From contig NZ_JAGTAS010000051.1 in NCBI RefSeq assembly GCF_025685425.1, forward strand, positions 124,001 through 188,000: 64,000 nt of DNA. Direction: 5' to 3'. The stretch's first letter is position 1. Every line of letters starts with the position of its first letter. The notes below the pieces were generated by a model, which saw nothing but the letters and a program-made list of their open reading frames with translations, made no database searches and was not told the DNA's origin. The position numbers were made by a program, and so were the translations under genes. Below, piece by piece: positions 4,642-55,157 of the stretch. Source of the DNA: Terriglobus albidus (lineage in GTDB: Bacteria > Acidobacteriota > Terriglobia > Terriglobales > Acidobacteriaceae).

Positions 4642-5763
4642 GTGATTCGACGGCGACAGTTCGAAGTTATTGACGGCGGACAGATGGATCAGGTCCGCGT
4701 CTTCCACGATGTGGCGCGGGCGCTGACGTCGCAACTGGAGCTCGGTGTCATTCTGCGGACCATCATGGACAAGATGGCGCAGTTCTTCGCCCCGGAGCGC
4801 TGGTCGCTGCTGATGGTCGACGAAAAGGCCAACGAGCTCTACTACGAGATCGCGATCGGCGAAGAGACGGAATATCTGCGCACGCTGCGCCTGAAGATGG
4901 GCGAGGGCGTCGCCGGGTGGGTGGCCCAGAGCAACCAGGCGCTGGTTGTGCCCAGTGTGACCACCGATCCGCAGTGGTCGGCCTATGCCCGCCGCCATCC
5001 GGAGCTGAATATGCAGTCGTTGGCCTGCGTGCCGATTCAGGCGGACGGCAAGGTGCTGGGAGTCATCCAGCTGATGAACTCCAAGCTCGACCTGATGAGC
5101 GAGTACTCCGTCACCTTTTTGCGCATTCTTTGCGACTACGCCGCGATCGCTATCCAGAACGCTCGCCGGATGGAGCTGATTCAGGAGCTGACCATCACGG
5201 ACGACGTTACCGGCCTGTTCAATGCGCGCTACCTCTACAAGGCCATTGAGGAAGAGGTCCGCAAAGGCCGCCGCCATCACTTCAGCCTGATGTTCATGGA
5301 TATGGATCACTTCAAGGAAGTGAACGACACTCATGGCCATCTGGTTGGCAGCCGCTTGCTCGCTGAAGTGGGAAACCTGCTGCAGCGCGTCTTCGGAACC
5401 TCCAACCCGGCCTTTCGCTACGGTGGTGACGAGTTCGTTGTCCTGATGCCGGGCGTTGAGAAGGAACGTGCGGTCACCCTGGCCCGCACCATCTATGACA
5501 CCCTTGGTGATGCCCGCTTCCTTACCGGCGAGGGCCTTTCGCTCCGTGTGCAGGGAAGTCTCGGCCTGGCAACCTTCCCCGAGGATGGAGATACAGTGCA
5601 CTCCATCATCCGCGCGGCCGACACGATGATGTACGAGGTGAAGAACACCACTCGTAACAATCTCGCGGTGGTAGGTATGGGCCTGCTTTACGATCGCCCG
5701 ATGCAGACTGCTGAACAGCGCGAGGCGCGGGGGACGGCGATTGGGCAGTCGATGGTGACCTAG
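4642..5763 (+). CDS. GAF-GGDEF diguanylate cyclase
   Basis: A soluble 373-residue protein with a GAF sensory domain (about residues 20-170) and a GGDEF domain (about 185-345) that should make cyclic di-GMP from two GTP. The active-site loop RYGGDEF is intact at about residues 259-265. The inhibitory I-site RxxD expected just before it reads GTSN, so product inhibition through that site is probably lost. The start used is a GTG at 4642; an ATG at 4684 is an alternative. The TAG stop forms the first bases of a period-7 repeat array. Confidence 0.9.
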   Translation: MIRRRQFEVIDGGQMDQVRVFHDVARALTSQLELGVILRTIMDKMAQFFAPERWSLLMVDEKANELYYEIAIGEETEYLRTLRLKMGEGVAGWVAQSNQALVVPSVTTDPQWSAYARRHPELNMQSLACVPIQADGKVLGVIQLMNSKLDLMSEYSVTFLRILCDYAAIAIQNARRMELIQELTITDDVTGLFNARYLYKAIEEEVRKGRRHHFSLMFMDMDHFKEVNDTHGHLVGSRLLAEVGNLLQRVFGTSNPAFRYGGDEFVVLMPGVEKERAVTLARTIYDTLGDARFLTGEGLSLRVQGSLGLATFPEDGDTVHSIIRAADTMMYEVKNTTRNNLAVVGMGLLYDRPMQTAEQREARGTAIGQSMVT

Positions 5764-5794
5764 TTGCTGGTTGCTAGTTGCTGGTTCCTAGTTG
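5761..5794. repeat. Period-7 tandem repeat (TTGCTGG/TTGCTAG), left arm
   Basis: The sequence is built of the heptamers TTGCTGG, TTGCTAG, TTGCTGG and TTCCTAG, starting at the stop codon of the GAF-GGDEF gene. An array of the opposite orientation lies at 5873-5908, so the two form an imperfect inverted pair about 148 bases long overall. Confidence 0.85.
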
Positions 5795-5851
5795 AGACAT
5801 AGTCTCGTTTCGTTTGAAATGTAGCCTAGCGGAGAAAACCTGCTCTTCCCG

Positions 5852-7453
5852 ATGAGGAAATCCGGCGCTTCTAACCAACTAGCAACCAGCAACCAGGAAC
5901 TAGCAACTGCGCAGCAAACTGCTGCGCTCATCCGCACCTTCTTCGAGACGCATGCAGCGGCGGCCATCCTGGAGCACGGCACGCTTCTCTTCGATATGCG
6001 CTCGGCGCAGTGGAGCCTGAGTACCGATCACAATCGCTGCACGCTTCATCTGTGGAGTGAGGAGCGGAATCTTACACGGAGGATCTTGTCTGCGGAGGCT
6101 CGTGGGAGCAATCTGCGGCTGAGTGTACAGCGGTTTGGACAGGCGAAGCCTTCGACGCTGGATCTGGTTGCGAAACAGGAGCGGCGGCTGCCGACGACTC
6201 GCGATGCGGCACGCAGGCATTATCTGCGGACGCTGGAACGGGTGCTTGTCCGGAATTTTCCTGAGTGGAAGCCGACGGGCTTCAGCACTGCTATGGATCT
6301 GGAGCGCAGCTTTGGGCCTGCATATGCTCGTGGCGTGATTACGCGAGGGCAGCAGGCGTGGGCAGTGCTTGGTGTGGGGCCGGAGGAGTCGGCACAGACC
6401 ATCGATGGTGTGCTCACGCTGGGCATTCTGTGGCTGCAGCTGTGCCGCGAGCGTGCGATGGGGAAACATCTCTTTGCCGGGCTTCGCATTGTTGTTCCAG
6501 CGGGAACGGCGGCGCTGACGCTGGCGCGTATGGCGTGGCTGAATCCCCGGATTGCGCAGTGGGAGCTGTATGAGCTTGAGTCTCGTTCGGAAGAGTTGAT
6601 CCAACGTGAGCCTGCCGATCACGGTAATCTAAAGACGCGGCTGATTCATGCGCCGAATCCGGATACGACACGCTTCGACAGGGCGATCGCGCAGGTGATG
6701 GAGCTTGTTCCTGCCGATGCGCGTGGGCTTGTGGAACAGCGGCTGCGTTCGTCGACGGAGCTGGCGTTTCTGCTGCATGGGCTTGAGTTCGCACGCGCTG
6801 TGCTGCGGAGTTCCCTGAACTCGTTTGCGCACACGCTTGAGATCACGGTTGGAGCGGGTGCGAATGAGACTGTTCTTGATGATGGGAATCGTGATGCACT
6901 TCGCGCGCTGATCAACGAGCTCTTCAAGCGGCGCAGGCCTGAAGGAGATAGCAACGATCCATTATTCAGGATGCAGCCGGAGCGTTGGATGGAGTCGCGT
7001 CTGAGGACCAGCCTCGAAGATCTCGACGAGGCGTTGCGCCCCATGCCGGTCTATACGCAAGTGCCTGCGTTTGCTGCTACGGATCGAGGCATGCTGGATC
7101 TGCTTGGTGTCACCGATGGCGGGCGGCTGGCGGTGCTTGAATTGAAGGCAGATGAGGATCTTCATCTTGCGTTACAGGCGCTGGATTACTGGATCCGGGT
7201 TCGATGGCATGCGAGGCTTGCTCCGCATGAGATGGTGAATCCGCTGCAGCAGCATGGGTATTTCCCTGGCTTGGCGCTGTCGCAGGAGGCTCCATTGATG
7301 TATCTGGTGGCTCCGGCGCTGCGGATTCATCCGGCTACGGAGGTTGTCTTGCGGCATTTGAAGCCGGAGGTGGAGTGGCATCTGGTTGCTCTGGATGAGC
7401 GTTGGCGTACGGAGATACGGGTGACGTTCCGGAAGCATTCGCCGAAGGGGTGA
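5852..7453 (+). CDS. Large conserved hypothetical with PD-(D/E)XK nuclease-like C terminus
   Basis: A 533-residue soluble protein not assigned to a named family. Around residues 413-450 it reads MLDLLGV, then LAVLELKADED, then LQALDYW. The order Asp, Glu-x-Lys and a following helix with Gln and Tyr is what a PD-(D/E)XK nuclease core looks like, so a nuclease-like fold is inferred rather than shown. The only ATG in frame before the conserved-looking region is 5852. With it, a period-7 repeat array is translated into the N terminus (NQLATSNQELAT). A non-ATG start downstream is the alternative. Confidence 0.65.
   Translation: MRKSGASNQLATSNQELATAQQTAALIRTFFETHAAAAILEHGTLLFDMRSAQWSLSTDHNRCTLHLWSEERNLTRRILSAEARGSNLRLSVQRFGQAKPSTLDLVAKQERRLPTTRDAARRHYLRTLERVLVRNFPEWKPTGFSTAMDLERSFGPAYARGVITRGQQAWAVLGVGPEESAQTIDGVLTLGILWLQLCRERAMGKHLFAGLRIVVPAGTAALTLARMAWLNPRIAQWELYELESRSEELIQREPADHGNLKTRLIHAPNPDTTRFDRAIAQVMELVPADARGLVEQRLRSSTELAFLLHGLEFARAVLRSSLNSFAHTLEITVGAGANETVLDDGNRDALRALINELFKRRRPEGDSNDPLFRMQPERWMESRLRTSLEDLDEALRPMPVYTQVPAFAATDRGMLDLLGVTDGGRLAVLELKADEDLHLALQALDYWIRVRWHARLAPHEMVNPLQQHGYFPGLALSQEAPLMYLVAPALRIHPATEVVLRHLKPEVEWHLVALDERWRTEIRVTFRKHSPKG
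5873..5908. repeat. Period-7 tandem repeat (CTAGCAA/CCAGCAA), right arm inside a coding start
   Basis: Units CTAGCAA, CCAGCAA, CCAGGAA and CTAGCAA follow each other. The array is the inverted counterpart of 5761-5794 and lies within the predicted first 20 codons of the 533-residue protein. Confidence 0.85.
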
Positions 7454-7463
7454 CCACTATACT

Positions 7464-7690
7464 GGGTGCCCCACATACGCGAAGCTTATGTGGGCATTCG
7501 CGCTCCGCGCGAACCGTCTTTTGGTTGTCATCCCGCAGGGATCTGCTTTTTTTCAAACAAAGCGTATCGAGCTCCGCTCGATCCCCCACATAAGCTTCGC
7601 GTATGTGGGGCACCCGGATTCGTAGCGACCCAGACCACCATTCAACAATTCAACTATTCAACTATTCAACTATCGGAGCCAAAGGCTCCG
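7464..7690. repeat. Composite repeat with a long inverted pair and an octamer array
   Basis: GGGTGCCCCACATACGCG near 7464 has an exact reverse complement ending near 7618, giving arms of about 31 bases. Between them lie TTCGCGC-TCC-GCGCGAA (7497-7513) and ATCGAGC-TCC-GCTCGAT. A period-8 array of ATTCAACN units follows at 7640-7671. The block fills the gap between the 533-residue protein and the M61 peptidase. Confidence 0.85.
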
Positions 7691-7708
7691 CCCAACTAGA
7701 ATTCCCCC

Positions 7709-9598: not shown

Positions 9599-10117
9599 CG
9601 GTCCGCTAACCACGGAGCCGGGTGCCCCGGGTCCCGCTTCTGGGACCTGGGCATTCGCGCTCCGCGCGAATTGTTTTGCTTAAGGGCACGGCTTTCAGCC
9701 GTGCCGTACGAAGTTTCAACAAAGCAAGCGGCTTCAGCCGCTGAGGTCAATGCCAGGGCTTTGTGGATCTGCCCTCAGGGGCTCAAAGCCCCTTTCCTAA
9801 AACATCCTGAAACGGGACGGCTGAAGCCGTCCCCTTAAGCAAGACATTCGCGCTCCCGCGCGAACTTTTTGTTGGTCATCCCGAAACGGGGTCCCCGACC
9901 AGCTCTGCTGGTTGGGGCAGGAAGGGATCTGCTTTTCCGAGAAAAGAAGCGTATCGAGCTTCGCTCGACGATCCCACCCATTGCTCCGCAATGGATGGGA
10001 CACCCGGTGTTGTGGCTTGTCTAACGACCCCATCTACACGCAAAATCGTTGCTTGGGACAGTAAAGGCCGGGCCCAGGTCCCTAAGGGAACCGGGGGCAC
10101 CCGGTGTATGGGCTGTC
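9599..10117. repeat. Composite palindromic repeat block
   Basis: This gene-free stretch of about 520 bases is a mosaic of modules: GGGTGCCCC with a GGTCCC/GGGACC stem at 9621-9650, TTCGCGC-TCC-GCGCGAA at 9654-9670, GGCACGGCTTTCAGCCGTGCC, a CAGGGGCTCAAAGCCCCT hairpin, ATCGAGC-TTC-GCTCGA, a CCCATTGCTCCGCAATGG stem and a final GGGGGCACCCGGTGTATGGG. No coding potential was seen. Confidence 0.8.
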
Positions 10118-10318
10118 CTAGTCCTTATCCTCACCACACTTGAGGCATTCGAAGGATTTCCCGATCCACTCCGCCCTACCCTCAGGTGTCACCACCCACT
10201 CCCGCTCCTGCCAGGGCGGATCGTGCCGCACATGCCGGGTATGGCCGCACTCCAGATCGGCGACCCAATGCCCGTCATCATCCTGATGAAACCCGACAAT
10301 CTCCCGATGCACGCCCAT
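10118..10318 (-). CDS. Small DUF3565-like protein
   Basis: A 66-residue protein starting MGVHREIVGFHQDDDGHWVA, followed by LECGHTRHVRHDPPWQ and ending FECLKCGEDKD. The pattern of GHWVA, CGHTRHVRH.PPW and a terminal CxxC matches the DUF3565 family of small putative metal-binding proteins of unknown function. The start at 10318 was chosen because a longer reading frame would run through an ATTCAACN repeat array. It is divergent from yggX, with that array between the two genes. Confidence 0.75.
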   Translation of the reverse strand: MGVHREIVGFHQDDDGHWVADLECGHTRHVRHDPPWQEREWVVTPEGRAEWIGKSFECLKCGEDKD

Positions 10319-10343
10319 ACACCCGCTCCCACCACCGAACCCA

Positions 10344-10377
10344 CTATTCAACCATTCAACAATTCCACCATTCAACC
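10344..10377. repeat. Period-8 tandem repeat (ATTCAACN)
   Basis: Four units of ATTCAACN type occur in the gap between the divergent DUF3565-like gene and yggX. The same octamer occurs at 7640-7671, 42955-42984, 48400-48428, 51874-51948 and 55113-55146. Confidence 0.8.
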
Positions 10378-10862: not shown

Positions 10863-10868
10863 TTTACT

Positions 10869-22041: not shown

Positions 22042-23445
22042 TTACCAGACGTAGGTTGTGATGGCGCCGGCGGCCAGCGAGGTATGGAAGGTCTTTCCAT
22101 GGAAACGTACGCTGAACTCACGCGCCTCCGCATCCGGGTTGCTGACCAGCAGAACATACTTTCCCTTGGGCGTGCGCAGTGCCACTTCAGCAGGGCAGCT
22201 TCTTTCACACGACGATCCGATACGAACTGAGCCCGGCGGCACAAACTTCGAGGCGTGTGCCGCGGTGTAATGCGCCACCAGGCGCGTGACCTTGTCACCA
22301 TCCAGCGTCAGCGAGCCAGAGCACATCGGGCAGCCTCCGTTGTTGGTGTGCGGCCCGTTCTGCGGATCGGCCGCGAGGTTCCAGAGCAGCACATTGCGGC
22401 TCCAGTTATTCAGCGCCCCGATCACGACGCGCGCGAAGGGACGAGCGATCGGCATTGGTTCTTTTGCCTTGTAGGCGACGACCATCTGCTCGGTGAAGTA
22501 GATGTTCTTCTGTGGAAAGGCATCGTGTACCTGAGTCATGGCGCTGATGTCGCCGAGGTAGAGATGGAAGCCGGAGCCGTCGGTTACGGGCCCGGACTTT
22601 GGATCCTTCAGCACGGTCTCCGGATAGTTGGGATGGTCGCAGTTGTGATCGAAGGCGATGATCCTGGTCTGCAGACCGGCGGCGTGTAGCGCTGGTCCCA
22701 GGTGCTGACCGATAAACTCAGCCTCTTCGTCAGCGGTCATCACCAGGCTGGGTGTGTTCTTCGGGTTCTCCGGCTCGTTCTGCACGGTGAGCGCATCGAT
22801 GGTGATGCCGTGCGCCTTCATGCCCTGGAGATACTTCACCCAGTACTGCGCGTAGACGGGGTAGTACTCCTTCTTGAGGGCTCCGCCTTTGACGTTTTCG
22901 TTGGTCTTCATCCAGGAGGGCGCGGTCCAGGGAGAGGCAAGGATCCTGATCTTCGGATTGATCGCCAGGATTTCTTTCAGGACAGGGATGACGTCCTTCT
23001 CATCCTCGGCGAGCGTGAAGTGCTTCAGCTCTGGATCGGTCTCACCGGCGGGCATATCGTCGTAGGTGTAGACGTAGGCGTTCATATCGGAGGCTCCGAC
23101 GGAGACGCGGAGATAGGACATGCCGATCTGGCCGTCACGCTTGCCGAAGAGCTCATGCAGCAAAGTGCTGCGGGCCCCGGGTGTCATCTTCATGAGAAGC
23201 TGTGCGGAGCCGCCGGTGAGGGCGTGGCCGAAGCCGTCGATGGTTTGGAAATGTTTTGAGTCATCGATGGAAATTGTGGCGCCGGTGGCGGGGGTCCTGG
23301 TCCATTTCAGGTCGGCCTCACGATGCAGGAGGGTGGCGCCATCGCTCGTCGTGAGCCACATCTGTGCGGGCTTTTGGGCATTGATGGTTGCGGCGCTCAG
23401 CGAGAGGGTGAGGATCAGTAGCTTTTGCGTGATTTTGAATCGCAT
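22042..23445 (-). CDS. Secreted GH30 family glycoside hydrolase
   Basis: A 467-residue exported enzyme of family GH30 (glucosylceramidase / endo-beta-1,6-glucanase group). The signal peptide ends INAQ. The (beta/alpha)8 barrel shows TIDGFGHALTGGSAQLL at its start, the acid/base glutamate in TVQNEPENPKN near residue 226 and the nucleophile glutamate in IYFTEQMV near residue 318, followed by the side beta domain. With GH3 next door, attack on beta-1,6- or mixed beta-glucan is a reasonable guess. It stands between repeat blocks and is probably transcribed on its own. Confidence 0.9.
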   Translation of the reverse strand: MRFKITQKLLILTLSLSAATINAQKPAQMWLTTSDGATLLHREADLKWTRTPATGATISIDDSKHFQTIDGFGHALTGGSAQLLMKMTPGARSTLLHELFGKRDGQIGMSYLRVSVGASDMNAYVYTYDDMPAGETDPELKHFTLAEDEKDVIPVLKEILAINPKIRILASPWTAPSWMKTNENVKGGALKKEYYPVYAQYWVKYLQGMKAHGITIDALTVQNEPENPKNTPSLVMTADEEAEFIGQHLGPALHAAGLQTRIIAFDHNCDHPNYPETVLKDPKSGPVTDGSGFHLYLGDISAMTQVHDAFPQKNIYFTEQMVVAYKAKEPMPIARPFARVVIGALNNWSRNVLLWNLAADPQNGPHTNNGGCPMCSGSLTLDGDKVTRLVAHYTAAHASKFVPPGSVRIGSSCERSCPAEVALRTPKGKYVLLVSNPDAEAREFSVRFHGKTFHTSLAAGAITTYVW

Positions 23446-23469
23446 ATCGTTTGTTTTTCAGAACCAGAG

Positions 23470-23720
23470 TGCCGGATTATGGAGCGGGCCTTCAGCCCTT
23501 TAATTCTTTGGGACTGTCTACCTGGGGCGTTGCCCCAGGCTGGTATGGAGCGCGCCTTCAGCGCTTATTCTTGCCAAGCCGTCGCTAATCGATCAGCAAA
23601 CAAGATTCGTTAGAACCAAACCTTTTAGCGTTCCAGCAGACGAGATCGTGAATATCCCACCCATCGCGATATCACCCCAACGAACAAGTTCGTCGGGGTG
23701 AACGTTCGCAACGCTAGGGT
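23470..23720. repeat. Composite palindromic repeat block
   Basis: The GGAGCGGGCCTTCAGCCCTT / CCTGGGGCGTTGCCCCAGG / GCGCGCCTTCAGCGC block (23476-23569) is followed by CCCCAACGAACAAGTTCG with TCGGGG at 23672-23698. It closely matches 21840-21928 and 58965-59050. Confidence 0.8.
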
Positions 23721-23760
23721 GGGTTCGGAGCGCCCTGAATTCGTAACAAAAACAGAGATC

Positions 23761-23793
23761 TAAAAATAAGAGGCGGGTAGTTGCACCCGCCTC
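23761..23793 (-). terminator. Intrinsic terminator of the TonB-dependent receptor gene
   Basis: On the minus strand GAGGCGGGT, a GCAACT loop and ACCCGCCTC are followed by TTATTTTTA. This perfect 9-bp stem with a T-rich tail begins 13 bases after the receptor stop codon. Confidence 0.85.
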
Positions 23794-23806
23794 TCAGGCC
23801 AGGAGA

Positions 23807-26800
23807 CTAGAACGAGAAGCGACCCATGAGCTGGATTGCTCGCCCGCCGACGAACAGGTTGGTTGAGGTGATCTTTCCGAAGTTTCCGTTGGTGATGGAA
23901 GTGTTCGGATTCGCGAAGACCGGGTGGTTCAGTACGTTGGTTGCGTCGGCGCGCAGCTCAAACTTGTACTGCTCCTTGTAGAGGTTGAAGGTCTTGCCGA
24001 GCGAGGTGTTGAAGCTCACCATGCCGGGGCCGTAGACGTTGTTGCGATGGAAGTTGCCGAAGGTTCCGTTCGCAGGGATGATGTATGCCGCGTTGGTGTC
24101 AGGGCCTACCTTCTGGCCGCTCTGGCTGATGTAGGTGGTGTTGAACCAGTGATCGCGGGTGCGATCGCTGAGCGTGGGATTGCCGGCCCAGTTCGGATAC
24201 ATGTTGCCCGAACCGGCATAGGTCTGCGCCAGCGTTGATGGAATGGTGACGGTCATCGGGTTACCCGACTGCAGCACGTAGGTGGTAGAAAGCTGCCATC
24301 CACCGAGGGCCTGATCAACCACGTAGTTGTTGTTCAGGAAGCGCTGTCCCTTGCCGAAGGGAAGCACATAGATCACGTCTCCCTTGAAGGCGTTGCGAAC
24401 ATCGAAGTTCGACGGACCGTAGTTGGCTCCCACGTCGTACGAGTTCTGGTAGGTGGTGGTGCCGTTGCGGCTGCCCCACGCGGATGAGTCAAACTCGTTG
24501 AGGAACTTCGACCACACATAGCTGGCATCGAAGGACAGGCTGTGGGTCAGACGCTTCTGAAGCGTAGCCTGCAGCGAGTTGTAGTTGGCATCGGAGTTGA
24601 AGGTGCTGCCGTTGATGGTGGTGAACTGCGGGAACGGGCGGAACTGCTGATCGTTGACGGCCAGCTTGTCTACGGGCACCTGATTGATATCGCGGCTGAA
24701 GGTCAGGTTGACTGAGCGGCTGCCTACATATGCGAGGCTCGCCTTCATGTCGCTGCCGATCTGCTTCTCGACGGTGATGTTGTACTGGTGGATCTTGGTC
24801 ACCGGCGTATGCTGGTTGGTGAAGTTGACACCCTGTCCGTTGTACGCGCCTGAGTCGGTCGTCGGTCCGATGTACGGGAACTGCGGATTCGCGGCTGACA
24901 GCTTACCGACCGCGGTCTGGCCGTTGCTGGTATCCGACAGCGATCCCTTGAAGCCGAAGGCCGAGCCCTCGTCGCTACCGTAGGTATCCAGGCTCCAGAG
25001 GTAGGCATACAGACCGTAGCCGCCGCGGATCACAAAGCCCGGCTGGTACTGCCAGGCAAAGCCGACGCGCGGAAGAACGGTGTCATAGACGTTGTTCTGC
25101 AACTGCGAGCGTCCGTTTGCCTTGGTGCTCGCGTACCACATGCCGCCCAGCGTGTTGGTGACACTGTTGGTCACGTTGGGATCGAAGGTACGCTGGTTGC
25201 CCTTGGTGTCAGACCAGCCTTCCATGATCTGGTAGCGCAGGCCGAGGTTGACGGTAAGGTTCGGCGTCAGCTTCCAGTCGTCCTGGATGAACATCTGCGG
25301 AGCCTTCTGGCGTCCGGCAAACTCAGGCGTGACCTGTGCTGACCAGCTGTTGATCTGCTCGGTGTAGAGATCGGCCCAGGCATTGCCCGTGGAGGCCTGA
25401 TTGCCGCCTGCCGCCGTCTGGCAGTAGGTGCACTGCGTATACACGCCGGTGAAGCCGAGGGTCGATCCGTTGATGTTGCCGTATGCGGTCGAGTTGTCCT
25501 GGAAGATCATGTACTCGCCGCCGACGTGGAGGATGTGCTTGCCGCGGATCATCGTCACCACGTCCGAAGGATCGTAGTTGTGCTCCTTGTAGGTGAAGGG
25601 CGAGAGCGGCTGGTTGATGCCCGAGTAGGACGAGACGTTGAAGGTCGGAATGATGTCGAACTTCAGGTACGGGAGACCGAGTGACGGTCCAAGGCCGGTG
25701 CCCTGTGTGTCCGGGATAAAGAAGTTGAGCTGGTTGGTGTAGCCCAGACGCGCTTCGTTGATGGTGCGCGAGCTGATGTTCCACACATCGGTGATCTGCG
25801 AGTTGTAGCTGCTGACATCACCGGTCATACAAACCAGCGGGCATCCCAGACCGTTGACGTAACGTGCCGGGTTGTCACGCTCGGTGACCGATCCGGTCAG
25901 ACGGTTCGACGGCGAGATGTCGTAGTCGAAGCGGCCGAAGAAGCGGCTGTAAGGATTGCTGGAGCGGAGGTTGTAGTAGTAGTTGTTCGCCGTAACGCCG
26001 GTCGTCGGGCTGGTGGACGAGTTCGGACCGTTGTAGTTCGCCTTCGGGTACAGCGCCAGCACCTTCGCGGCGGTCGGAGAGATCGGTACCTGGTTGTTCG
26101 CGAACTGGGTGCGCTTGATGTAGGTCTTTCCGCCGACCGTCACCTGCGAGGTGGTCGAAGGATCATAGACCGGAGCCATGCCGGAGAAGTCGCCGCGACG
26201 CATCGCATCGGTGGGTACAGTCTGGTAGCCGGTGCTCGCGCTCAGGCTGATGGTGCGGTCGTAGTTGAAGTAGAAGAACAGGCGGTTCTTTCCACCCAGC
26301 GACTGCGGCAGCCATACCGGTCCGCCGATCGATCCGCCGAAGTCGTGGTAACGGCGATAGGGCTTCGAGGTCTGGTAGAAGCTGCGCGCATTCAGAGCAT
26401 CGTTCTGGAAGTACTCGTAGAGCGCTCCGTGGAAGGTAGAGGTCCCGCCCTTGCTGATCTGGTTCATGATCACACCGCCGGTACCGAACTGCGCGGAGAA
26501 GGCCGAGGTATTGACCTGCACCTCCTGCACCGTCTCGAAGGTCGACACGTCGGCATTGCCGGAGTGCGACAGGGCGGACGAGGCGCCGTCTGCCAGCACA
26601 GCGTTATAGGGCAGGTTGCCATTTACGGAGTAGGCCTGGCCGGTGTTGGTGGTTCCGGAGGTCGAGGTCGCGGTCGCGCCCGGAATTAGCTTGATGAAGT
26701 TCTGCCAGTCCGGCGTGGGGTTCGGCAGCTTCGACAGAACCTTGCTCTCGAGCGTGGTGGACTGCTCGCCGCTCTCAGTCTGGATCAGCGGAACATCTTC

Positions 26801-33954: not shown

Positions 33955-34090
33955 AACGGTTCACCCCACGTTCGCCCGGGACCAAGGGATCCCACATCTG
34001 CTTGCACCCCAACGAACGTAGTTCGTCGGGGACCCCGCGGCGCAGATATGGGGCACCCGGTGTATGGGCGAGGCGAAGGTCACCATTCAA
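33955..34090. repeat. Composite palindromic repeat block
   Basis: CCCCAACGAACGTAGTTCG with TCGGGG (34006-34031), GGGGCACCCGGTGTATGGGC and a single TTGAATGG octamer (on the minus strand) next to the aminotransferase stop codon. Confidence 0.75.
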
Positions 34091-35437
34091 CTAATCCGCA
34101 ACTAGCGCATCTGCGATGGCCAGGTGCTCGTCCAGCGCAGTGAGAGCGAACTCGATCTCTTCTTTGGAGACAATGAGTGGTGGGGCGATGACGAAGTGGT
34201 TCATCCAGGCCTGGAGGAAGATTCCGGAGGCCATCATCTTACCGGCGATCTGGTCGACGACCAGGGTCTTGCCGTCGAGCTTTTCCTGCCAGACATTGAA
34301 GGGTGTCTTCTTTGCCTGATCTTTTACCAGCTCGACTGCCCAGAAGAGTCCGAGGCCGCGGACGTCTCCGATGGATTTATGTTTCGCCTTCAGGGCCTGC
34401 AGCTTTTCACCGAGGTAGGCGCCTACTTCGACGGCGCGTTCTACCAGGCCTTGCCGCTGCATCTCGCGGATGGTGGCGATGGCTGGGCCCAGTGTCAATG
34501 GGTGTGCCTCATACGTGTGGCCGTGAGCGAAGAGATTGTCTTCAAAGAAGGCAGAGATCTTTTCGGAGACAGCGGTGAGACCGAGCGGGACGTAGGCCGA
34601 GGTGATTCCTTTGGCGGTGGTGAGGATGTCGGGCTGCACGCCCCAGTGGTCGATGGCGAACCACTTGCCGGTGCGTCCCCATCCGGCCATCACTTCATCG
34701 GCGATCAATAGGACATTATTTTCGTCGCAGATGCGGCGCAGCTTCTGGTAGTAGCCGGGCGGCGGGATCAGTACGCCGTTGGTGCCCACGACGGTTTCGG
34801 CAAGAACGGCGGCGACGTCGCCTTCGTTCTGGATCATGTATTCGAGGTAGTCCGCGCAGGCGATGCCGCAGTCTGGATACGAGTGCTTCAGTGGGCACTT
34901 GTAGCAGTTCACCTCGGGAGAGAAGACTACTCCGGGCAGTTTGCTGCGAGGCTCCGAGGGCCATCGGCGCGCATCGCCCGTGGCTCCGATCGAGGAGGCC
35001 GTTGAGCCATGATACGAACGATAGCGGCCGATGATCTTGGTCTTGCCGGTATACATGCGGGCGATCTTGAAGGCGGCCTCATTTGCGTCAGTGCCTGAGG
35101 TGCAGAAGAAGAACTTAGTCAGGCCTTTGGGCAGGATCTCCAGCAGCAACTGGCTCAGTTCGGCGCGCGCTGTCGTCGTGTAGGAAGGCTGGATGTATGC
35201 GAGCTCGGCGGCCTGTTGCTGGATCGACTGGATCACAGCCTGGTTGTTGTAGCCGAGGTTCACGCACATCAGCTGTGCGGAGAAGTCGAGGTAGCGCTTT
35301 CCGTTGGCGTCGGTAAACCAGCAACCGTCACCGCTAACCACGTGCAGCGGGTTCCATTGTTTGCCCCGGCGCCAGGTGCCGAAGTTGTGTTGTTTGGTGA
35401 TGTCGACGACCTGCTGCGAACTGAGTGTTTCGGCCAT
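34091..35437 (-). CDS. Class III (omega) aminotransferase
   Basis: A 448-residue PLP enzyme of the class III aminotransferase family. The substrate-side signature LIADEVMAGWGRTGKWFAI and the PLP lysine in TTAKGITSAYVPLG (near residue 277) are present, as is SGTDANEAAFKIAR for phosphate binding. A cysteine-bearing insert (NCYKCPLKHSYPDCGIACA) is typical of one subgroup that acts on taurine, beta-alanine or similar amines; the exact amino donor is unknown. The TAG stop abuts an octamer repeat unit. The gene stands alone. Confidence 0.88.
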   Translation of the reverse strand: MAETLSSQQVVDITKQHNFGTWRRGKQWNPLHVVSGDGCWFTDANGKRYLDFSAQLMCVNLGYNNQAVIQSIQQQAAELAYIQPSYTTTARAELSQLLLEILPKGLTKFFFCTSGTDANEAAFKIARMYTGKTKIIGRYRSYHGSTASSIGATGDARRWPSEPRSKLPGVVFSPEVNCYKCPLKHSYPDCGIACADYLEYMIQNEGDVAAVLAETVVGTNGVLIPPPGYYQKLRRICDENNVLLIADEVMAGWGRTGKWFAIDHWGVQPDILTTAKGITSAYVPLGLTAVSEKISAFFEDNLFAHGHTYEAHPLTLGPAIATIREMQRQGLVERAVEVGAYLGEKLQALKAKHKSIGDVRGLGLFWAVELVKDQAKKTPFNVWQEKLDGKTLVVDQIAGKMMASGIFLQAWMNHFVIAPPLIVSKEEIEFALTALDEHLAIADALVAD

Positions 35438-41519: not shown

Positions 41520-42797
41520 TTATCCTTCCTTTGCCAGGGCACGATGCCCGATATCACGGCGATAGAACATGCCTTCGAACTGAATGCTTTCCAGCCGGCC
41601 GTAGACCATCGCCAGTGCAGTCTTGAGATCGTCGGCAGCGGCGGAGACTGCGAGCACGCGTCCGCCGGCGGTGCGGAACTCGCGGTCCATGAGCGAGGTT
41701 CCGGCATGGAAGACCTGCACGGCGCCGGTGTCGCTGGTCGGGGTGAGGCCATCGATCTTCAGACCGGAACGATAGCTGCCGGGGTAGCCTCCGCTGGCCG
41801 CGATCACGCAGGCGCTGGCGCCGGGCTTCAGACGGACAGCGATCTCATTCGCGCGACCGTCGATGGCGGAATCGAAGAGGTCGAAGAGGTCGGTCTCCAA
41901 ACGAAGCACGATTGCTTCGGTCTCGGGATCGCCCCAGCGTGTGTTGAACTCCAGCACCATGGGGCCGCGAGCCGTCATCATGAGGCCGCAGAACAGGATG
42001 CCGGTGAAAGGCGTGCCCTCCAGCGCCATGCCGTCGACGACGTTCTGAGTGACGTGCGTGGTGAGCCAATCCACCATCGTGGGTTCCAGAAGAGCGTCAG
42101 TGCAGTATGCGCCCATGCCGCCGGTGTTCAGGCCGGTATCACCCTCGCCGACGCGCTTATGGTCCTGCGCTGCAGCGATGGGAATGGCGTGGGCGCCATC
42201 GCAGAGTGCGAAAAAGCTGACCTCTTCGCCTTCCAGGAACTCTTCCAACACCAGGCGGGTGTCGCTCGATCCGAGCAGCGAGCCGGAGAAGATGCCGGCG
42301 GCGACCTCTTCTGCCTCCGCCTTGGTCTGGCAGATGACTACGCCCTTCCCGGCTGCGAGGCCATCGGCCTTCACCACCAGAGGCGTATGGAAGATTGGCA
42401 GCGACTTCCGCACCTCTTCCAGAGAGGCGCAGACGGCGTAGTGTGCCGTCGGAATGCGGCGGCGCTGCATGAATTCCTTGGCGAAGGCCTTGCTGCTCTC
42501 CAACTGGGCTGCGGCCTGCGTGGGTCCGAAGACGCGGAGACCGCGCTGCTGCATGGCATCGACGATGCCGGCGGCGAGGGGGACCTCTGGGCCGATGACG
42601 GTCATCCCGGGCTGTTCCTGCTCGACGACGGCGAGCATCGAGGGAATGTCTTTCACATCCGCAGGAAGGCAGCGCGCGATGGCGGCGATGCCGCCGTTGC
42701 CGGGCGCACAGACGACTTCACTTACTTTGGGACTCTGCTGCAACGACCAGACGAGAGCGTGTTCGCGTCCGCCTCCACCGATTACCAGAACCTTCAT
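41520..42797 (-). CDS. purD: Phosphoribosylamine-glycine ligase PurD
   Basis: A 425-residue ATP-grasp ligase that joins glycine to phosphoribosylamine in purine synthesis. The N terminus MKVLVIGGGGREHALVWSL is diagnostic. GPEVPLAAGIVDA, VKADGLAAGKGVVIC and VLEFNTRWGDPETEAIVL mark the nucleotide- and metal-binding parts. The ATG at 42797 was chosen over one six codons upstream because the family begins at this methionine. It probably leads an operon with the DinB and RidA genes. Confidence 0.95.
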   Translation of the reverse strand: MKVLVIGGGGREHALVWSLQQSPKVSEVVCAPGNGGIAAIARCLPADVKDIPSMLAVVEQEQPGMTVIGPEVPLAAGIVDAMQQRGLRVFGPTQAAAQLESSKAFAKEFMQRRRIPTAHYAVCASLEEVRKSLPIFHTPLVVKADGLAAGKGVVICQTKAEAEEVAAGIFSGSLLGSSDTRLVLEEFLEGEEVSFFALCDGAHAIPIAAAQDHKRVGEGDTGLNTGGMGAYCTDALLEPTMVDWLTTHVTQNVVDGMALEGTPFTGILFCGLMMTARGPMVLEFNTRWGDPETEAIVLRLETDLFDLFDSAIDGRANEIAVRLKPGASACVIAASGGYPGSYRSGLKIDGLTPTSDTGAVQVFHAGTSLMDREFRTAGGRVLAVSAAADDLKTALAMVYGRLESIQFEGMFYRRDIGHRALAKEG

Positions 42798-42829
42798 ATG
42801 CTTCGAGCCTAGCAAACTTTTGTGGCTTC

Positions 42830-42984
42830 CTTGCCCACCCTCACTCCGTGAGGGTGGGGCACCCAGGTGGGATCACAAAAAAAGCGGTTCGCGCGAAGCG
42901 TGAATACCCACATCTCAGCGTGGCCGAGATATGGGCACCCGGTGTATGGGCTGGATTATTCAATCATTCAATTCTTCAATCATT
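42830..42984. repeat. Composite repeat block with octamer array
   Basis: CCCACCCTCACTCCGTGAGG with GTGGGGCACCC, TTCGCGC-GAA-GCGTGAA, CCCACATCTCAGCGTGGCCG with AGATATGGGCACCC and GGTGTATGGGC are followed by a TTCAAT-type octamer array at 42955-42984 that ends 11 bases before the rsmI stop. Confidence 0.8.
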
Positions 42985-42995: not shown

Positions 42996-43862
42996 TTAGC
43001 GGCGGGTCTTTTCGCGTTGCCACTGGCGGTAGACTTCGCTCTTGCCCATGTTGCGGTCGCGGGCTACCTGTTTGAGGGCGTCTTTCTCGGAGAAGCCTTG
43101 TTTCATCAGGGTCTCGACAGTCGACGCGATGGAGGCCGGTGCGGCTTGTGCAGCCTCTTCTGCAGGACGTTCTCCGCTGAGCAGCAGGACGAACTCTCCT
43201 CGGATTGCGTCACGGTTTTTGAGAGCTTTCAGCACGTCAATGACAATGCCGCGCAGGTGTTCTTCATGCAACTTGGTCAGCTCGCGTGCGAGCGCTACCG
43301 GATGCTCCGGACCAAAGACTGCTGCCACGTCTTCCAGAGTCTCCACGATGCGGTGGGGAGCTTCGTAGAAGATGTGCGTTGTGCCGTTGAGCATGAGCGA
43401 CTCTAACTGCGTTCGGCGCTGGCCTGCCTTGGGTGGCAGAAATCCATGAAAGGTGAAGCTTTCAGTCGACAGACCGCTGGCAATGAGCGCGGAGATCGCG
43501 GCGTTTGCTCCTGGAATTGGGTAGACCGGAATGCCGGCTGCGATTGCTGCCGCGACCACTTCAGCGCCTGGGTCAGCGATGCCCGGCGTGCCGGCGTCGG
43601 AGACGATAGCGATACGTTGCCCGGACTGCAGCGCGGACAACAACTCATCGCTACGTGAACGTTCATTGTGCTGGTGATAGCTGATGGTCGGCTTCTGGAT
43701 CTGGAAGTGGTTCAACAGCTTTTGCGTCTGGCGTGTGTCTTCGCAGGCGATGCGGTCGACCGACTGCAAGACCCGCAGCGCTCGTAACGTGATGTCTTCC
43801 AGGTTGCCGATCGGCGTAGCGACGAGATAGAGGCCCGGCGCCAGCGGCGCAGGCTCACTCAC
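42996..43862 (-). CDS. rsmI: 16S rRNA (cytidine(1402)-2'-O)-methyltransferase RsmI
   Basis: A 288-residue SAM-dependent enzyme that 2'-O-methylates C1402 in the ribosomal P site. The start PGLYLVATPIGNLEDITLRA, ACEDTRQTQKLLNHF and VSDAGTPGIADPGAEVV are hallmarks of the tetrapyrrole-methylase-like RsmI family. A C-terminal helical extension (FSEKDALKQVARDRNMGKSE) is normal for RsmI. The ATG overlaps the stop of the M50/CBS gene by four bases, so it is translated in an operon with it. Confidence 0.95.
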   Translation of the reverse strand: MSEPAPLAPGLYLVATPIGNLEDITLRALRVLQSVDRIACEDTRQTQKLLNHFQIQKPTISYHQHNERSRSDELLSALQSGQRIAIVSDAGTPGIADPGAEVVAAAIAAGIPVYPIPGANAAISALIASGLSTESFTFHGFLPPKAGQRRTQLESLMLNGTTHIFYEAPHRIVETLEDVAAVFGPEHPVALARELTKLHEEHLRGIVIDVLKALKNRDAIRGEFVLLLSGERPAEEAAQAAPASIASTVETLMKQGFSEKDALKQVARDRNMGKSEVYRQWQREKTRR

Positions 43863-45577: not shown

Positions 45578-45582
45578 AGCTT

Positions 45583-45650
45583 CGATCCTTCAATTCTTCA
45601 TTTTCTTCAATCGTTTCAATGCTTCACTCATTTGGTTATTCAATAGACAT
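45583..45650. repeat. TTCAAT-type short repeat array
   Basis: Irregular units of TTCAATTC, TTCATTTT, TTCAATCG and TTCAATGC type fill the gap between rsmD and maf. They belong to the period-8 family found near other gene ends. Confidence 0.65.
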
Positions 45651-46211: not shown

Positions 46212-46470
46212 AGGACCACAGAACTGGGTGCCCCATCCATCACATCGTGATTGGGTGGGATGTCTCGCGGAGCGAGACGCTTTTCCCTCCTGGGCACCGA
46301 AAGAGTACTGGTAGAGAAGCAGATTTCTCCGCTCCCGTTTGGAGCTACGAAATGACAAACCAAAAAGCAGGTTCGCGCGTAGCGCGAATGCCCACATCTC
46401 GGCCTAGCCGAGATATGGGGCACCCATTCGGTGGCTCAACTAGCAACCAGGAACTAGCAACTAGCAACCA
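46212..46470. repeat. Composite repeat block with period-7 array
   Basis: GGGTGCCCC with a CCATCAC/GTGATTGG stem, the GTCTCGC-GGA-GCGAGAC hairpin (46262-46278), GTAGAGAAGCAGATTTCTCC, TTCGCGC-GTA-GCGCGAA, CCCACATCTCGGCCTAGCCG with AGATATGGGGCACCC and, at 46438-46470, a CTAGCAA/CCAGGAA period-7 array. The array contains the stop codon of the M20 peptidase gene. Confidence 0.85.
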
Positions 46471-48334: not shown

Positions 48335-48428
48335 TATTGAATGATTGAATAACGGAATAATTGAATAAACCAGAGCACCGAAGCTGCAGGGACACTATTC
48401 AATTTTTTACTTATTCAATTCTTCAATT
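48335..48428. repeat. TTGAAT / ATTCAA short repeat arrays
   Basis: Units such as TTGAATGA and TTGAATAA (48335-48365) and ATTCAATT and TTCTTCAATT (48400-48428) flank a short unique piece. The second array contains the stop codon of the DedA gene (TGA at 48423-48425, on the minus strand). Confidence 0.7.
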
Positions 48429-49642: not shown

Positions 49643-49753
49643 CCGGTCATTGTACGGGGCTGAGTTAAGAAGTATGGGGAGGGGGGTGAGAAAATAGCGA
49701 GAAGGTCAACTGTCGGCGAGACTTCCCGTCCGCAGTAGAAGTCTTATCTCAAG

Positions 49754-50833
49754 ATGACGCCAGTGGAAACGCCACCCAACGCTCCTTCGCCGGAGCTTAG
49801 CGGCCGCAAAGCTCGCCGCTACGACGAGATGGAGCACCATGAGCTGCTCCACCTGATGGATGAGATCGACGATGAACGCGCCCGGGCGCGCTTCCGTGAG
49901 TCGATCTATATCTCGGTCATCGTCTGGCTCATCCTTGGCTGGTTCATGCTCTATGGCCCAAGAGTGCTCTTCCACCAGGGCAAAGTGATCTCGGTTGTGG
50001 ATGCTCTGAAGGAGCGCGACAAGGAATTGCGCTACCTCGATCTGCCGCCGGATGTGAGCAAGAAGCTGCCGAAGAAACCCACGGACATCATCAGTGACAA
50101 GGACCGCGTCGCCCAGACGAAGACGCCGACACTCGATAAGAAGACCTTGCAGCAGTTGCAGGCCATGCAGCGCTCTGCGCCGCCGGCTCCGGTACAGGCG
50201 CCTCCCGCGCCCCAGCCTGCTCCGCAGCAGGCAGCCCCTGCACCTGCTCCGGCTCCACAGCAGCCGGCGCCGCAACAGGCACAGCAGCAGCCACTTCCTT
50301 CTACGCCGTTGCCCCAGCATCAGCCTCCGCCACAGCAGCAGGCGGCTCTGGATGCGCCTAAGCCTAATTTCAATACCAATCGCGCAGCTACCGGATTCGG
50401 CAATCTCGTGCAGCAGGCCGCACAGGCGGCCCGGAGTGGCGGTGGCGGCGGCAATTATGGGCAGAACGCGAACCCGCAACATCCGGGCCTGCAGGCTGGC
50501 GCTGAGATTCTCTCCGACACCATGGGCGTGGACTTCGGCCCGTACATGCGCCGCCTGCGGAACGACATCCAGCGTAACTGGGATCCACTGATTCCTGAGT
50601 CGGTCCGTGCGCCGATCCTGAAACAAGGCGTCACTGGTATTCGCTTCGTAATTCTTCCTGACGGCCGCATCGGCAACATTCTGCTGGAGACCAAGTCCGG
50701 CGATGTCGCGCTCGACAAAGCCGCATGGGGCGCCATCACCGCCGAAGGACAGTTTCCGCCGTTACCCAAGGAGTTCAAAGGTCCCTACCTTGAGCTGCGC
50801 TGCGGCTTCTTCTACAACATGCCCGTGCAATGA
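49754..50833 (+). CDS. TonB-like energy transducer protein
   Basis: A 359-residue inner-membrane protein. A charged cytoplasmic N terminus of about 50 residues is unusually long for TonB. One membrane helix (SVIVWLILGWFMLYG) follows, then a Pro/Gln/Ala-rich periplasmic spacer (about residues 130-200) and a C-terminal TonB-type domain (GVTGIRFVILPDGRIGNILL). Such proteins transmit energy from ExbB-ExbD to outer-membrane receptors like the one at 23.8-27.2 kb. The stop overlaps the start of a 42-codon gene by four bases. Confidence 0.85.
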   Translation: MTPVETPPNAPSPELSGRKARRYDEMEHHELLHLMDEIDDERARARFRESIYISVIVWLILGWFMLYGPRVLFHQGKVISVVDALKERDKELRYLDLPPDVSKKLPKKPTDIISDKDRVAQTKTPTLDKKTLQQLQAMQRSAPPAPVQAPPAPQPAPQQAAPAPAPAPQQPAPQQAQQQPLPSTPLPQHQPPPQQQAALDAPKPNFNTNRAATGFGNLVQQAAQAARSGGGGGNYGQNANPQHPGLQAGAEILSDTMGVDFGPYMRRLRNDIQRNWDPLIPESVRAPILKQGVTGIRFVILPDGRIGNILLETKSGDVALDKAAWGAITAEGQFPPLPKEFKGPYLELRCGFFYNMPVQ

Positions 50834-50958
50834 AGCCTGATGCGTTAACCTCTATCGCGCGCGGTCTTCTTCTGCTGGCTCTTTTGGTGATCGCCGTGGC
50901 TCTGTGGCGTGCGCATCACCATCACACGCTGGGGGCCGGATGGTGGAAGGCATGGTAG
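50830..50958 (+). CDS. Small membrane peptide with histidine cluster (42 aa)
   Basis: A 42-residue ORF coupled to the TonB-like gene by ATGA. It has one hydrophobic helix (GLLLLALLVIAVALW), then RAHHHHTL and a Trp-rich end GAGWWKAW. The layout of single helix, four histidines and three tryptophans could bind a metal and sit at the membrane surface. It overlaps the 5' end of miaA by 19 bases. Support is the tight coupling and its regular membrane-protein composition; no family is recognised. Confidence 0.55.
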   Translation: MKPDALTSIARGLLLLALLVIAVALWRAHHHHTLGAGWWKAW

Positions 50959-51881
50959 AGCCTCTGTTGGTCGTGCTCGTCGGTCCGACGGCAAGCGGCA
51001 AAACCGCTCTCGGTATTCACCTCGCGCAACGCTTCGGCGGCGAGATCGTGAGCTGTGATTCGGTATCGGTCTATCGCGGCATGGATGTCGGATCAGCGAA
51101 GCCATCGCTGGAGGAGCGTGCCGCCGTTCCTCATCATCTGATCGACATCCGTAACCCCGATGAGCCCTGCACCGCAGGCGACTACAGCCGTGAGGCACGT
51201 GCTGCGATTGCCGAGATTACCGCACGCGGCCACCTGCCGATTGTCAGCGGAGGCACCGGCCTGTATCTGCGGGCGCTTACCGATGGCCTCTTTGCAGGCC
51301 CGCAGCGCGACGAGGAACTGCGGGAGCGGCTGCGTCAGCGTGCTGCCGCTCGTGGCAGCGAGTATCTGCATCGCCTGCTCATGCGTCTGGATCGCAAGGC
51401 ATCGGAGAGCATCCACGCGAATGACACTCCGAAGCTGATTCGCGCCATCGAGGTCTGTCTCGCCGCAAGGACGCCGATGACCGAGGCCTGGCAGCAGCAG
51501 GGCCGCGACCCGCTCACCGGGTACCGCATTGTGCGCCTCGGTCTGAATCCTGACCGCACGCTGCTTTACGACCGCATCAACCGCCGCGCCGCCGCTATGT
51601 TCGAACACGGCCTCGTAGAAGAAACCGCAATGCTTGCGCAGGAATATGGCGCCGACGTCCGGCCCTTGACCTCATTGGGCTACGCCCAGGCGCTTGCCCT
51701 GCTACAAGGCTCCATGACTCGCGAAGAGGCCATCGCTGCCGCACAACAGGGCCACCGCAACTACGCGAAGCGCCAGCTCACCTGGTTCCGCCGCGATCAG
51801 GATGTTCATTGGTTGAGTGGTTTTGGAGATGAGGTGAGGGAGGAAGCGGTGGAACTGGTAAAGGAGGGGTTGAATGGTTGA
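50940..51881 (+). CDS. miaA: tRNA dimethylallyltransferase MiaA
   Basis: A 313-residue enzyme that adds a dimethylallyl group to A37 of tRNAs reading codons that start with U. The P-loop LVGPTASGKTALG, SCDSVSVYRGMDVGSAKP and PHHLIDIRNPDE are typical, as are IVSGGTGLYLRAL and the C-terminal RNYAKRQLTWFRRD. Starts at 50940 or 50952 are both possible. The last codons (GLNG-stop) come from a GTTGAATG octamer array that begins inside the gene, so the native stop seems to have been replaced. Confidence 0.94.
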   Translation: MVEGMVEPLLVVLVGPTASGKTALGIHLAQRFGGEIVSCDSVSVYRGMDVGSAKPSLEERAAVPHHLIDIRNPDEPCTAGDYSREARAAIAEITARGHLPIVSGGTGLYLRALTDGLFAGPQRDEELRERLRQRAAARGSEYLHRLLMRLDRKASESIHANDTPKLIRAIEVCLAARTPMTEAWQQQGRDPLTGYRIVRLGLNPDRTLLYDRINRRAAAMFEHGLVEETAMLAQEYGADVRPLTSLGYAQALALLQGSMTREEAIAAAQQGHRNYAKRQLTWFRRDQDVHWLSGFGDEVREEAVELVKEGLNG

Positions 51882-51948
51882 ATGGTTGAATTGTTGAATT
51901 GTTCCGCCAATGAGCGACTGGGGTGCGTTTCACCATTCAACTATTCAA
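51874..51948. repeat. Paired octamer arrays (GTTGAATN / ATTCAACN)
   Basis: Direct GTTGAATG and GTTGAATT units at 51874-51902 contain the miaA stop codon. An inverted ATTCAACT array at 51933-51948 contains the stop of the small membrane protein gene on the other strand. The two arrays face each other between convergent genes. Confidence 0.8.
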
Positions 51949-52156
51949 CCTTTTGCGGCATCCTTACCTTGCTCTTTGCCTTCCCCCACTTTTCCTTCAC
52001 GCGTTCCAGAAGCCGTGCCGCCCAGAGGCGGTCTACTGCTAAGACAGCCAGACCGGCGATCAGGAGAGGAATTCCAGGGATTACGGGCAGGACACAGCCT
52101 ACCACTCCGATAAGGATCAGAAGCCAGGCGCCGGTCTCACGAAGGAATCGCTTCAC
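51941..52156 (-). CDS. Small membrane protein (PGPGW- or DUF454-like)
   Basis: A 71-residue protein with a hairpin of two hydrophobic segments around IGVVGCVLPVIPGIPLLIAG and then AVDRLWAARLLERVKEKWGK, a pattern shared by PGPGW-type and DUF454-type membrane proteins of unknown function. It sits six bases after the molybdopterin oxidoreductase gene on the same strand and is probably in its operon. Its final codons GTT GAA TAG are formed by an octamer repeat unit. Confidence 0.65.
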   Translation of the reverse strand: MKRFLRETGAWLLILIGVVGCVLPVIPGIPLLIAGLAVLAVDRLWAARLLERVKEKWGKAKSKVRMPQKVE

Positions 52157-52162
52157 CTGTCG

Positions 52163-54292: not shown

Positions 54293-54307
54293 AGATACAT
54301 TCTAGTC

Positions 54308-54751
54308 ATGCGCCGTATTTTGCTCGCCCTGATCTTTGCCTCTGCCACCCTTGCACCTGCCCAGTTGGGAACCGTACCCCAGCAGACATTGGACTGCATC
54401 AAGGTGCTGCTCGCGCAGGAACGGTCCTGGAACGCAGGGGATATTGATGGATTTCTGACCGGCTACAAAGACTCGCCGGAGACGATCTTCGTCAGCCGTG
54501 GCGTGCATAAGGGATTTGCGGAGCTGGCGGATAACTACCGCAGGAGCTATCCGACGAAGGCCGCGATGGGGACGCTGAGCTTCAGTGATTTCGATGTGAA
54601 ACAGCTTGATGAGAACTTTGCGGTGGTGCTGGGCAGGTTCCATCTGGAGCGGAAGAAGCAGGATGGTGGGAATGCGGAAGGTGTCTTTTCGCTGGTGATG
54701 GAGAAGACGGATGCGGGATGGAAGATCGTGGTGGATCACACGACGTCGTGA
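54308..54751 (+). CDS. Exported SnoaL/DUF4440-like protein
   Basis: A 147-residue exported protein with a signal peptide (MRRILLALIFASATLAPA) and one NTF2-like domain: LLAQERSWNAGDIDGFLTGY at the start and GVFSLVMEKTDAGWKIVVDH at the end, the common DUF4440/SnoaL-type pattern. The ATG at 54308 was chosen from the signal peptide; the long frame upstream is antisense to the oxidoreductase. It may bind or isomerise a small molecule, but no catalytic residue pattern settles that. Short TTGAAG-like repeats follow the stop. Confidence 0.8.
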   Translation: MRRILLALIFASATLAPAQLGTVPQQTLDCIKVLLAQERSWNAGDIDGFLTGYKDSPETIFVSRGVHKGFAELADNYRRSYPTKAAMGTLSFSDFDVKQLDENFAVVLGRFHLERKKQDGGNAEGVFSLVMEKTDAGWKIVVDHTTS

Positions 54752-55157
54752 AGTAAGTTGAAGAGTTTCAAAGTTGAAAGTTGAAGACGTACGGGTGGGT
54801 GAGACTAGTTGCTGGTTGCTAGTTGCTGGTTGAGGCTTGGGTGAGAGGAACTTTTGACCTGTCATCCTGAGCGAGCCGGGGTCCCCGGCGAACTTTGTTC
54901 GCTGGGGTGACAAAGCGAAGGACCTGCTTCTGCTTCTCATTCTTCGTAAAGCGAAGAATGAGACATTCGCGCCACGCGCGAACCGTTTGCTTAAGGGCAC
55001 GGCTTTCAGCCGTGCCGGAAAAACATCCGGGAAAAACGCGGCTTCAGCCGCTGAGGGCCGTGCCTGTTAGGACACCAATGCCAGCCTCAGCCAATAGGAC
55101 TGGGGCAACGAGACCATTCAACTATTCAACGATTCAACCATTCAACAAACCAGCCGC
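54752..55157. repeat. Composite repeat block with period-7 and period-8 arrays
   Basis: From left to right: TTGAAAG units, a period-7 array (CTAGTTGCTGG type, 54804-54832), GGGGTCCCCGGCGAACTTTG with TTCGCTGGGG, TTCGCGC-CAC-GCGCGAA (54968-54984), GGCACGGCTTTCAGCCGTGCC, GCGGCTTCAGCCGC and an ATTCAACN octamer array (55113-55146). No coding potential seen. Confidence 0.8.

Follow-up and report, generated by a model that had tools for sequence, protein, structure and literature searches.

Tandem-repeat arms at gene 3' ends in Terriglobus albidus, probably belonging to a family of small inverted-repeat elements

The window analysed here is a 64,000-nucleotide stretch of Terriglobus albidus (C57:124001-188000 of the genome designated G000; 6,104,258 bases) in which arrays of short tandem repeats lie at the ends of several genes. 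Six stop codons were found in or against period-7 or period-8 arrays, as the initial annotation had reported. These were the stops of a GAF-GGDEF gene (TAG 5761), an aminotransferase (TAG 34091), an M20 peptidase (TAG 46454), DedA (TGA 48423), miaA (TGA 51879) and a 71-residue membrane protein (TAG 51941). The arrays were sorted with an arm scorer built on four words (classes A to D), with thresholds of our own choosing; further words may exist. A class B left arm of heptamer units (5762..5794, plus strand) starts inside the TAG (5761-5763) of the GAF-GGDEF gene and has its partner, a class B right arm, at 5874..5908 (minus strand), which is followed by a perfect 8-bp hairpin. A class B arm at 46437..46469 (minus strand) contains the VASC codons and the TAG of the M20 peptidase gene, and a class A arm at 51869..51903 (plus strand) contains the LNG codons and the TGA (51879-51881) of miaA; the last residues of both proteins are thus repeat-encoded, as had been claimed. 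The DedA TGA lies in a class D arm at 48397..48428 (minus strand), partnered by another at 48335..48366 (plus strand). By eye, a two-unit class A right arm (51935..51949, minus strand) contains the TAG of the 71-residue protein, and a single class A unit, an octamer, behind a class B heptamer remnant (34085..34093, minus strand) contains that of the aminotransferase; both arrays were too short for the arm scorer and were counted as "no arm" in the orthologue comparisons below. Tandem Repeats Finder (TRF) reported arrays at 5760-5794, 46437-46468, 48396-48428 and 51868-51903.

The sample of G000 covered 1.32 Mb of 6.10 Mb and was composed of 864 kb in contiguous stretches (window included) and 40 array-centred stretches. 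One stretch, C28:1-400000, was picked as free of octamer hits, while most of the remaining sample was picked for octamer hits. Genes came from a home-made open reading frame (ORF) scorer without an annotation cross-check, and some weak scored arms are doubtful (e.g. C18b 543). A total of 175 arms were scored in G000, of which 65 were class A (GTTGAATN), 56 class B (RGTTGCT), 31 class C (AGTTGAA) and 23 class D (RATTGAAN). For unit statistics and hairpin counts, 65 arms of the sister genome G002 were added to give 240 arms.

The arrays are arms of near-fixed length, with four or five units, 28-35 bp and a fixed phase, and are not free tandem repeats. Exactly four units were present in 63 of 84 class A, 28 of 34 class C and 29 of 51 class D arms, and five units in 37 of 71 class B arms. 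Departures from the class A word fell in unit 2 in 42 of 84 arms and in unit 3 in 5 of 84, and the GTTCCT variant of class B was unit 3 in 40 of its 60 occurrences. Arms were also paired. Among 52 cases of neighbouring arms at most 400 bp apart, 45 were oriented left-to-right, pointing inward and away from the flanking genes, none right-to-left and seven on the same strand; 40 of the 45 left-to-right pairs (spacing 11-384 bp) shared one class, and 90 of the 175 G000 arms belonged to detected inverted pairs. Arms of this kind are intergenic tandem 7- or 8-bp repeats, as would be ordinary microsatellites that had expanded at gene ends through replication slippage. The near-fixed unit number, the positions that are not interchangeable, the reappearance of identical words at a great number of sites and the class-matched inverted pairs leave slippage with hardly any probability as an explanation. 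As a known class of repeat, microsatellites or variable-number tandem repeats were ruled out by the near-fixed unit number together with the position-specific units.

Location at gene ends, as claimed in the initial annotation, was strongly supported. A sense stop was abutted by 97 of the 175 arms (arm start 36 bp before to 10 bp behind the stop's end), where arms positioned at random so as to touch intergenic DNA would give 13.3 (binomial test), and antisense stops were abutted by four. In the contiguous 864 kb, 30 of 69 arms abutted a sense stop against 5.3 expected, and in the window six of the 15 scored arms started between 16 bp before and 11 bp behind one. Gene context was counted for 168 arms, seven lacking a scored gene on one or both sides having been dropped. 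The side that the arm faces away from carried a stop for 110 of the 168, and 93 of these 110 arms started 36 bp before to 10 bp behind the stop's end. For the other 58 arms that side carried a start and not a stop, which weighs against a pure link with stops. Only three of the 168 arms extended into a gene by more than 45 bp. In a strict word-free periodicity scan of G000, period 8 was seen in 15 of the 404 stop windows against 2 of 434 start windows, and period 7 in 8 of 404 against 7 of 434; the lack of a stop-side excess for period 7 would follow from a location of right arms in front of starts.

The units carry TAG or TGA, so that any array near a gene end could close the gene by chance. 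Read out of the gene, the real arms closed none, one, two or all three frames in 1, 20, 56 and 98 of 175 cases, against 80, 42, 41 and 12 when read antisense; at least two frames were therefore closed by the outward strand of 154 of the 175 arms. An arm lying just before a native stop would thus become the stop, and with all three frames closed by 98 sense arms, overlap with stops follows from nearness. Chance closure accounts for the location of stops within arms, but it fails as a whole account, for which it is improbable, as it leaves the nearness itself (97 against 13.3) and the arms 0-10 bp behind native stops unexplained.

Orthologous gene ends were compared with those of G017, a sister genome that is array-poor and not array-free: the same scorer found six class A-D arms in 500 kb, one of which sits at a compared gene end (C28b 169510), and the ATTCAACNATTCAAC word is absent. 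Orthologues were reciprocal best hits with at least 70% identity (190 of 205 pairs). The C-terminal end differed from that of the G017 orthologue in 12 of 16 genes with an arm overlapping the stop, in 1 of 12 with an arm 0-60 bp behind it and in 43 of 162 with no detected arm (Fisher p=0.0002 and 0.0006 for the contrasts); the overlap contrast is partly built in, because any arm beginning upstream of the stop necessarily supplies the final codons. The proposal that arrays replace the native stop therefore often held where the arm overlaps the stop and failed where the arm follows it. The orthologue check proposed in the initial annotation came out as predicted for five of the six window genes and against the prediction for one. 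Five end differently in G017, of which miaA, the M20 peptidase and DedA were changed by the computed test and the 71-residue protein and the aminotransferase by eye. The M20 peptidase ends in MVASC in G000 and MLHA in G017, and the aminotransferase in LVAD and LIG, respectively. For miaA, the ends were EGLNG in G000, EKLND in G012, EKELND in G015, RELNNGRME in G002 and EKQIFPG in G017. In the sixth, the GAF-GGDEF gene, the final residue and the TAG agree with those of G017, where there is no arm, and the stop is therefore native.

Arms differed between sister species at corresponding gene ends. A word search for the octamer pair in 61 genomes (G000 and 60 relatives) gave 110 counts in G000, 83 in G002, 63 in G015, 55 in G012 and one in G028. 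At 328 orthologous ends of G000 and G002, an arm was present in both genomes at 26, only in G000 at 8, only in G002 at 7 and in neither at 287. The 26 shared ends carried arms of the same class in 12 cases and of different classes in 14. At the GGDEF stop, the pair was B-B in G000, A-A in G002 and G012 (with similar cores), D-D in G015 and absent in G017; the arms of each pair match in class, with three classes over four sibling species. Similarly, a class A arm (55115..55146, minus strand) lies 11 bp behind the stop of a 561-residue gene (55158-56843) in the window, and a class D arm is found at that end in G002. A class D arm at 42950..42984 (minus strand) lies 11 bp behind the native stop of gene 42996-43862. 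Behind the genes ending at 7453, 9598 and 42996, the intergenic regions were 9-48 bp long in G017 against approximately 200-820 bp in G000 and G002; at other window ends, DedA and GGDEF among them, they were not shorter in G017. For the convergent gene pair at C28b 112430, an empty site in G017, the two stops are only 8 bp apart in that genome.

Perfect hairpins of at least 7 bp ended within 4 bp before to 3 bp behind the outer edge of 31 of the 240 arms, against one to three expected, while other 4-bp bins held 0-3 hairpin ends and controls 0.5-1.3 per bin. Such hairpins were present at 12 of 100 arms not at a stop, at 3 of 69 arms overlapping a stop and at 13 of 240 inner edges. On the stop side, the 5' stem consisted wholly of coding sequence in 16 of the 19 hairpins of at least 6 bp, with the stop itself lying in the loop or 3' stem. 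Examples of hairpins made from a gene's last codons at arm edges were seen at C28b 276269, L126 1044 and L122 3236. At the L122 1980 gene, an 11-bp hairpin of G000 is absent from G002 and G017, and the protein end is the same (by eye). We read these foldbacks as probable snap-back junctions, as if the gene end had been copied back on itself; another possible origin is selection favouring hairpins where genes end.

Overall, the arrays are somewhat more probably than otherwise the arms of a family of small interspersed inverted-repeat elements around a variable core, repeatedly laid or re-laid at gene 3' ends. This would happen by a break-and-join type of event, of which the foldbacks would be the snap-back junctions. 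Elements would survive mainly where little harm is done, and an arm landing a few codons before the native stop would supply a new one.

Several observations weigh against this reading. At C18a 23416-24366, the difference between G000 (class B) and G002 (class A) is confined to the arm, the sequence on either side being homologous; an element that simply inserted in its entirety would not produce this. The sequence behind the arm could be aligned between G000 and G002 at 4 of the 26 shared ends (for ends lacking a right arm, 60 bp of downstream sequence were used), and cores were mostly unrelated. The hairpin at C28b 276269 is common to G000 and G002 beneath arms of different class, so hairpins may be older than the adjoining arm. 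No partner was detected for 85 of the 175 G000 arms, and 100 of the 240 arms lie outside the range from 36 bp before to 40 bp behind a sense stop. Left and right arms of one pair were no more alike than same-class arms from different pairs. No target-site duplication stood out, a shared word of at least 5 bp being found in 4 of 51 pairs against 3.5% across pairs, and related internal sequence was limited to short hits in six core pairs among 51 elements. Finally, matches to the transposase family Y1_Tnp (PF01797) do not clearly track the arrays, with 10 in G000, 7 in G002, 4 in G015, 1 in G012, none in G017 and 0-5 in 15 other genomes of the genus.

Of the six core matches, one is clear. C28b 276146-276269 and L084 5563-5684, class B pairs located far from each other, have a largely common core including a terminator-like hairpin, and one may be a recent copy of the other.

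Inverted pairs right behind stops may alternatively be bidirectional transcription terminators selected as RNA hairpins, like the inverted pairs of neisserial DNA uptake sequences (DUS). Arms favour convergent regions, with 67 of 168 between convergent genes although these regions make up 37.9 of 186 kb of intergenic DNA. The RNA fold z-scores of four window pairs were -6.3 (5760-5908), -5.2 (48335-48428), -6.3 (51861-51955) and -5.9 (56860-56981), and a perfect 7-bp hairpin was present in 7 of 50 cores against 0.8 in shuffles. A strict terminator-like site was found in just 2 of 50 cores (shuffles 0.2), however, and the arm consensus holds no T-tract. Arms of one pair fitted each other no better than foreign arms of the same class; in 26 pairs between tandem genes, mismatches that G-U pairing could tolerate on the mRNA strand numbered 21 against 31 that it could not, and in at least two cases (L084, L119) an ordinary hairpin and T-tract precede the arm. 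The arm pairs may have a terminator role, but selection at the RNA level is not supported by the sequences, and the explanation as a whole is rather unlikely.

The element family proposed above was also compared with known systems. According to two reports (PMC2397512, PMC3630211), DUS are short scattered words that form terminator-associated inverted pairs and whose wording differs among related lineages. DUS are single 10-12-mers, mostly intergenic but common in genes, whereas the present arms have four or five units, fall into several classes per genome and include a word that crosses phyla; a single short word common within genes was not found here. Uptake-signal-like words spread by transformation bias would account for lineage-specific words and for inverted pairs behind genes, as in the neisserial DUS dialects described in those reports (PMC3630211, PMC2397512). 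Arms of approximately 30 bp that rarely lie deep in genes speak against it, as does the recurrence of one word in unrelated phyla, contrary to what uptake dialects predict, and we consider such an origin very unlikely. A report on marine Beggiatoaceae (PMC4679880) describes TAACTGA heptamers in short, mostly intergenic direct-repeat arrays that contain stop codons and are patchily distributed over phyla; those arrays mostly point at start codons and have 2-6 copies, with one inverted repeat in the genome. The present arms differ in their near-fixed copy number, inverted pairs and stop-side location.

Repetitive extragenic palindromic sequences and bacterial interspersed mosaic elements (REP/BIME) are small extragenic inverted repeats, often behind genes, and those with a REP-associated tyrosine transposase (RAYT) consist of a short palindromic unit and a tetranucleotide tag. 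Here the arms are four or five direct units and not palindromes, and G017, which seems to have words of its own, has no Y1_Tnp match. Miniature inverted-repeat transposable elements (MITEs) are interspersed mobile sequences with inverted ends, and the arms are alike in both respects, 45 of the 52 neighbouring cases being left-to-right; the lack of a target duplication and of a shared core and the arm-only difference at one gene set the arms apart from them. The short tandemly repeated repetitive (STRR) heptamers of cyanobacteria resemble the arms in being 7-bp tandem units of high copy number. The core of integron attC sites, GTTRRRY, is fitted by GTTGAAT, but the ends are oppositely oriented. 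No description of these arms was among the papers listed by a literature search that covered few subscription journals.

In G017, the strict scan showed no periodicity excess, with periods 7 and 8 in 0 and 1 of 248 stop windows, and a looser word-free scan flagged nine windows at lag 7, where the remaining lags gave 0-4. G017 appears by eye, on weak statistics, to have degenerate heptamers of its own behind orthologous stops, such as GTTGTCA and GGTGCGA. Of 150 genomes in the family, two contained the class B word; the reversed class B pattern, a negative control, matched seven others (G066, G069, G092, G109, G118, G133 and G147). In 104 kb of G092 viewed without a random control, six heptamer arrays of at least three units with other words were seen, four of them near an ORF end. 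In the GTDB collection, the class B word occurred in 77 stretches, which belong to Acidobacteria and a large number of further phyla. Among the 41 arrays from phyla other than Acidobacteria (those close to record ends dropped), 14 started near a sense ORF end where chance would give 2.8, in loci chosen by the word and not as a survey, and an inverted partner lay downstream of 16 and upstream of two. A bin named HGW-Firmicutes-8 holds many class-B-like arrays, some of more than 10 units (L166, L168, L174, L188, L193, L198 and L217).

A broader, so far undescribed process that rewrites the 3' ends of bacterial genes can be imagined, in which DNA breaks near a gene end, each end folds back and gains the same word four or five times, and the tagged ends are rejoined; as a general process this is unlikely. 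That the words would be lineage dialects of this process, with siblings differing at one stop, and that the process would supply or shift stops, is an equally speculative extension. No match to the reverse transcriptase family RVT_1 (PF00078) was found in the array-rich genomes G000, G002, G012 (94% complete) and G015 (91% complete), which argues against a telomerase-like origin by that family, and under this reading some other enzyme or template would have to provide the word.

Nine of the 15 arms scored in the window lie away from sense stops (5874, 7639, 10345, 45580, 45614, 48335, 54807, 56864 and 56949). Class A arms are located at 7639..7673 (minus strand), upstream of the start of a 629-residue gene and followed by a perfect 7-bp hairpin, and at 10345..10376 (minus strand), on a start side and followed by a perfect 8-bp hairpin; G002 has a class A arm at both places. 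Two degenerate class D arrays were identified at 45580..45645 (minus strand) with TRF and the arm scorer, a weak class-C-like array at 54755..54785 (plus strand), behind a 493-residue ORF, with TRF, and a class B arm at 54807..54834 (plus strand) with the arm scorer. A class B left arm at 56864..56895 (plus strand), with its right partner at 56949..56979 (minus strand), lies between two divergent gene starts and is a counter-example to the link with stops. By eye, other palindromic modules (GGGTGCCCCA...TGGGGCACCC, GGCACGGCTTTCAGCCGTGCC and CATTCGCGCTCCGCGCGAA) make intergenic mosaics at 7454-7636, 9599-10343, 46212-46436 and 54835-55112, and some of the palindromic modules of the window are present in G017 as well. 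Long ORFs of 422 residues (plus strand) and 431 residues (minus strand) overlap at 41520-42815.

A repeat family lying within a few bases of stop codons rewrites C-termini, and its words differ among siblings whose genes are mostly about 90% identical or above. This makes these genomes a test bed for how intergenic repeats reach gene ends, and calls for caution, as the last residues of many of their proteins are repeat-encoded. One word also turns up near gene ends in other phyla, a hint of a general mechanism.

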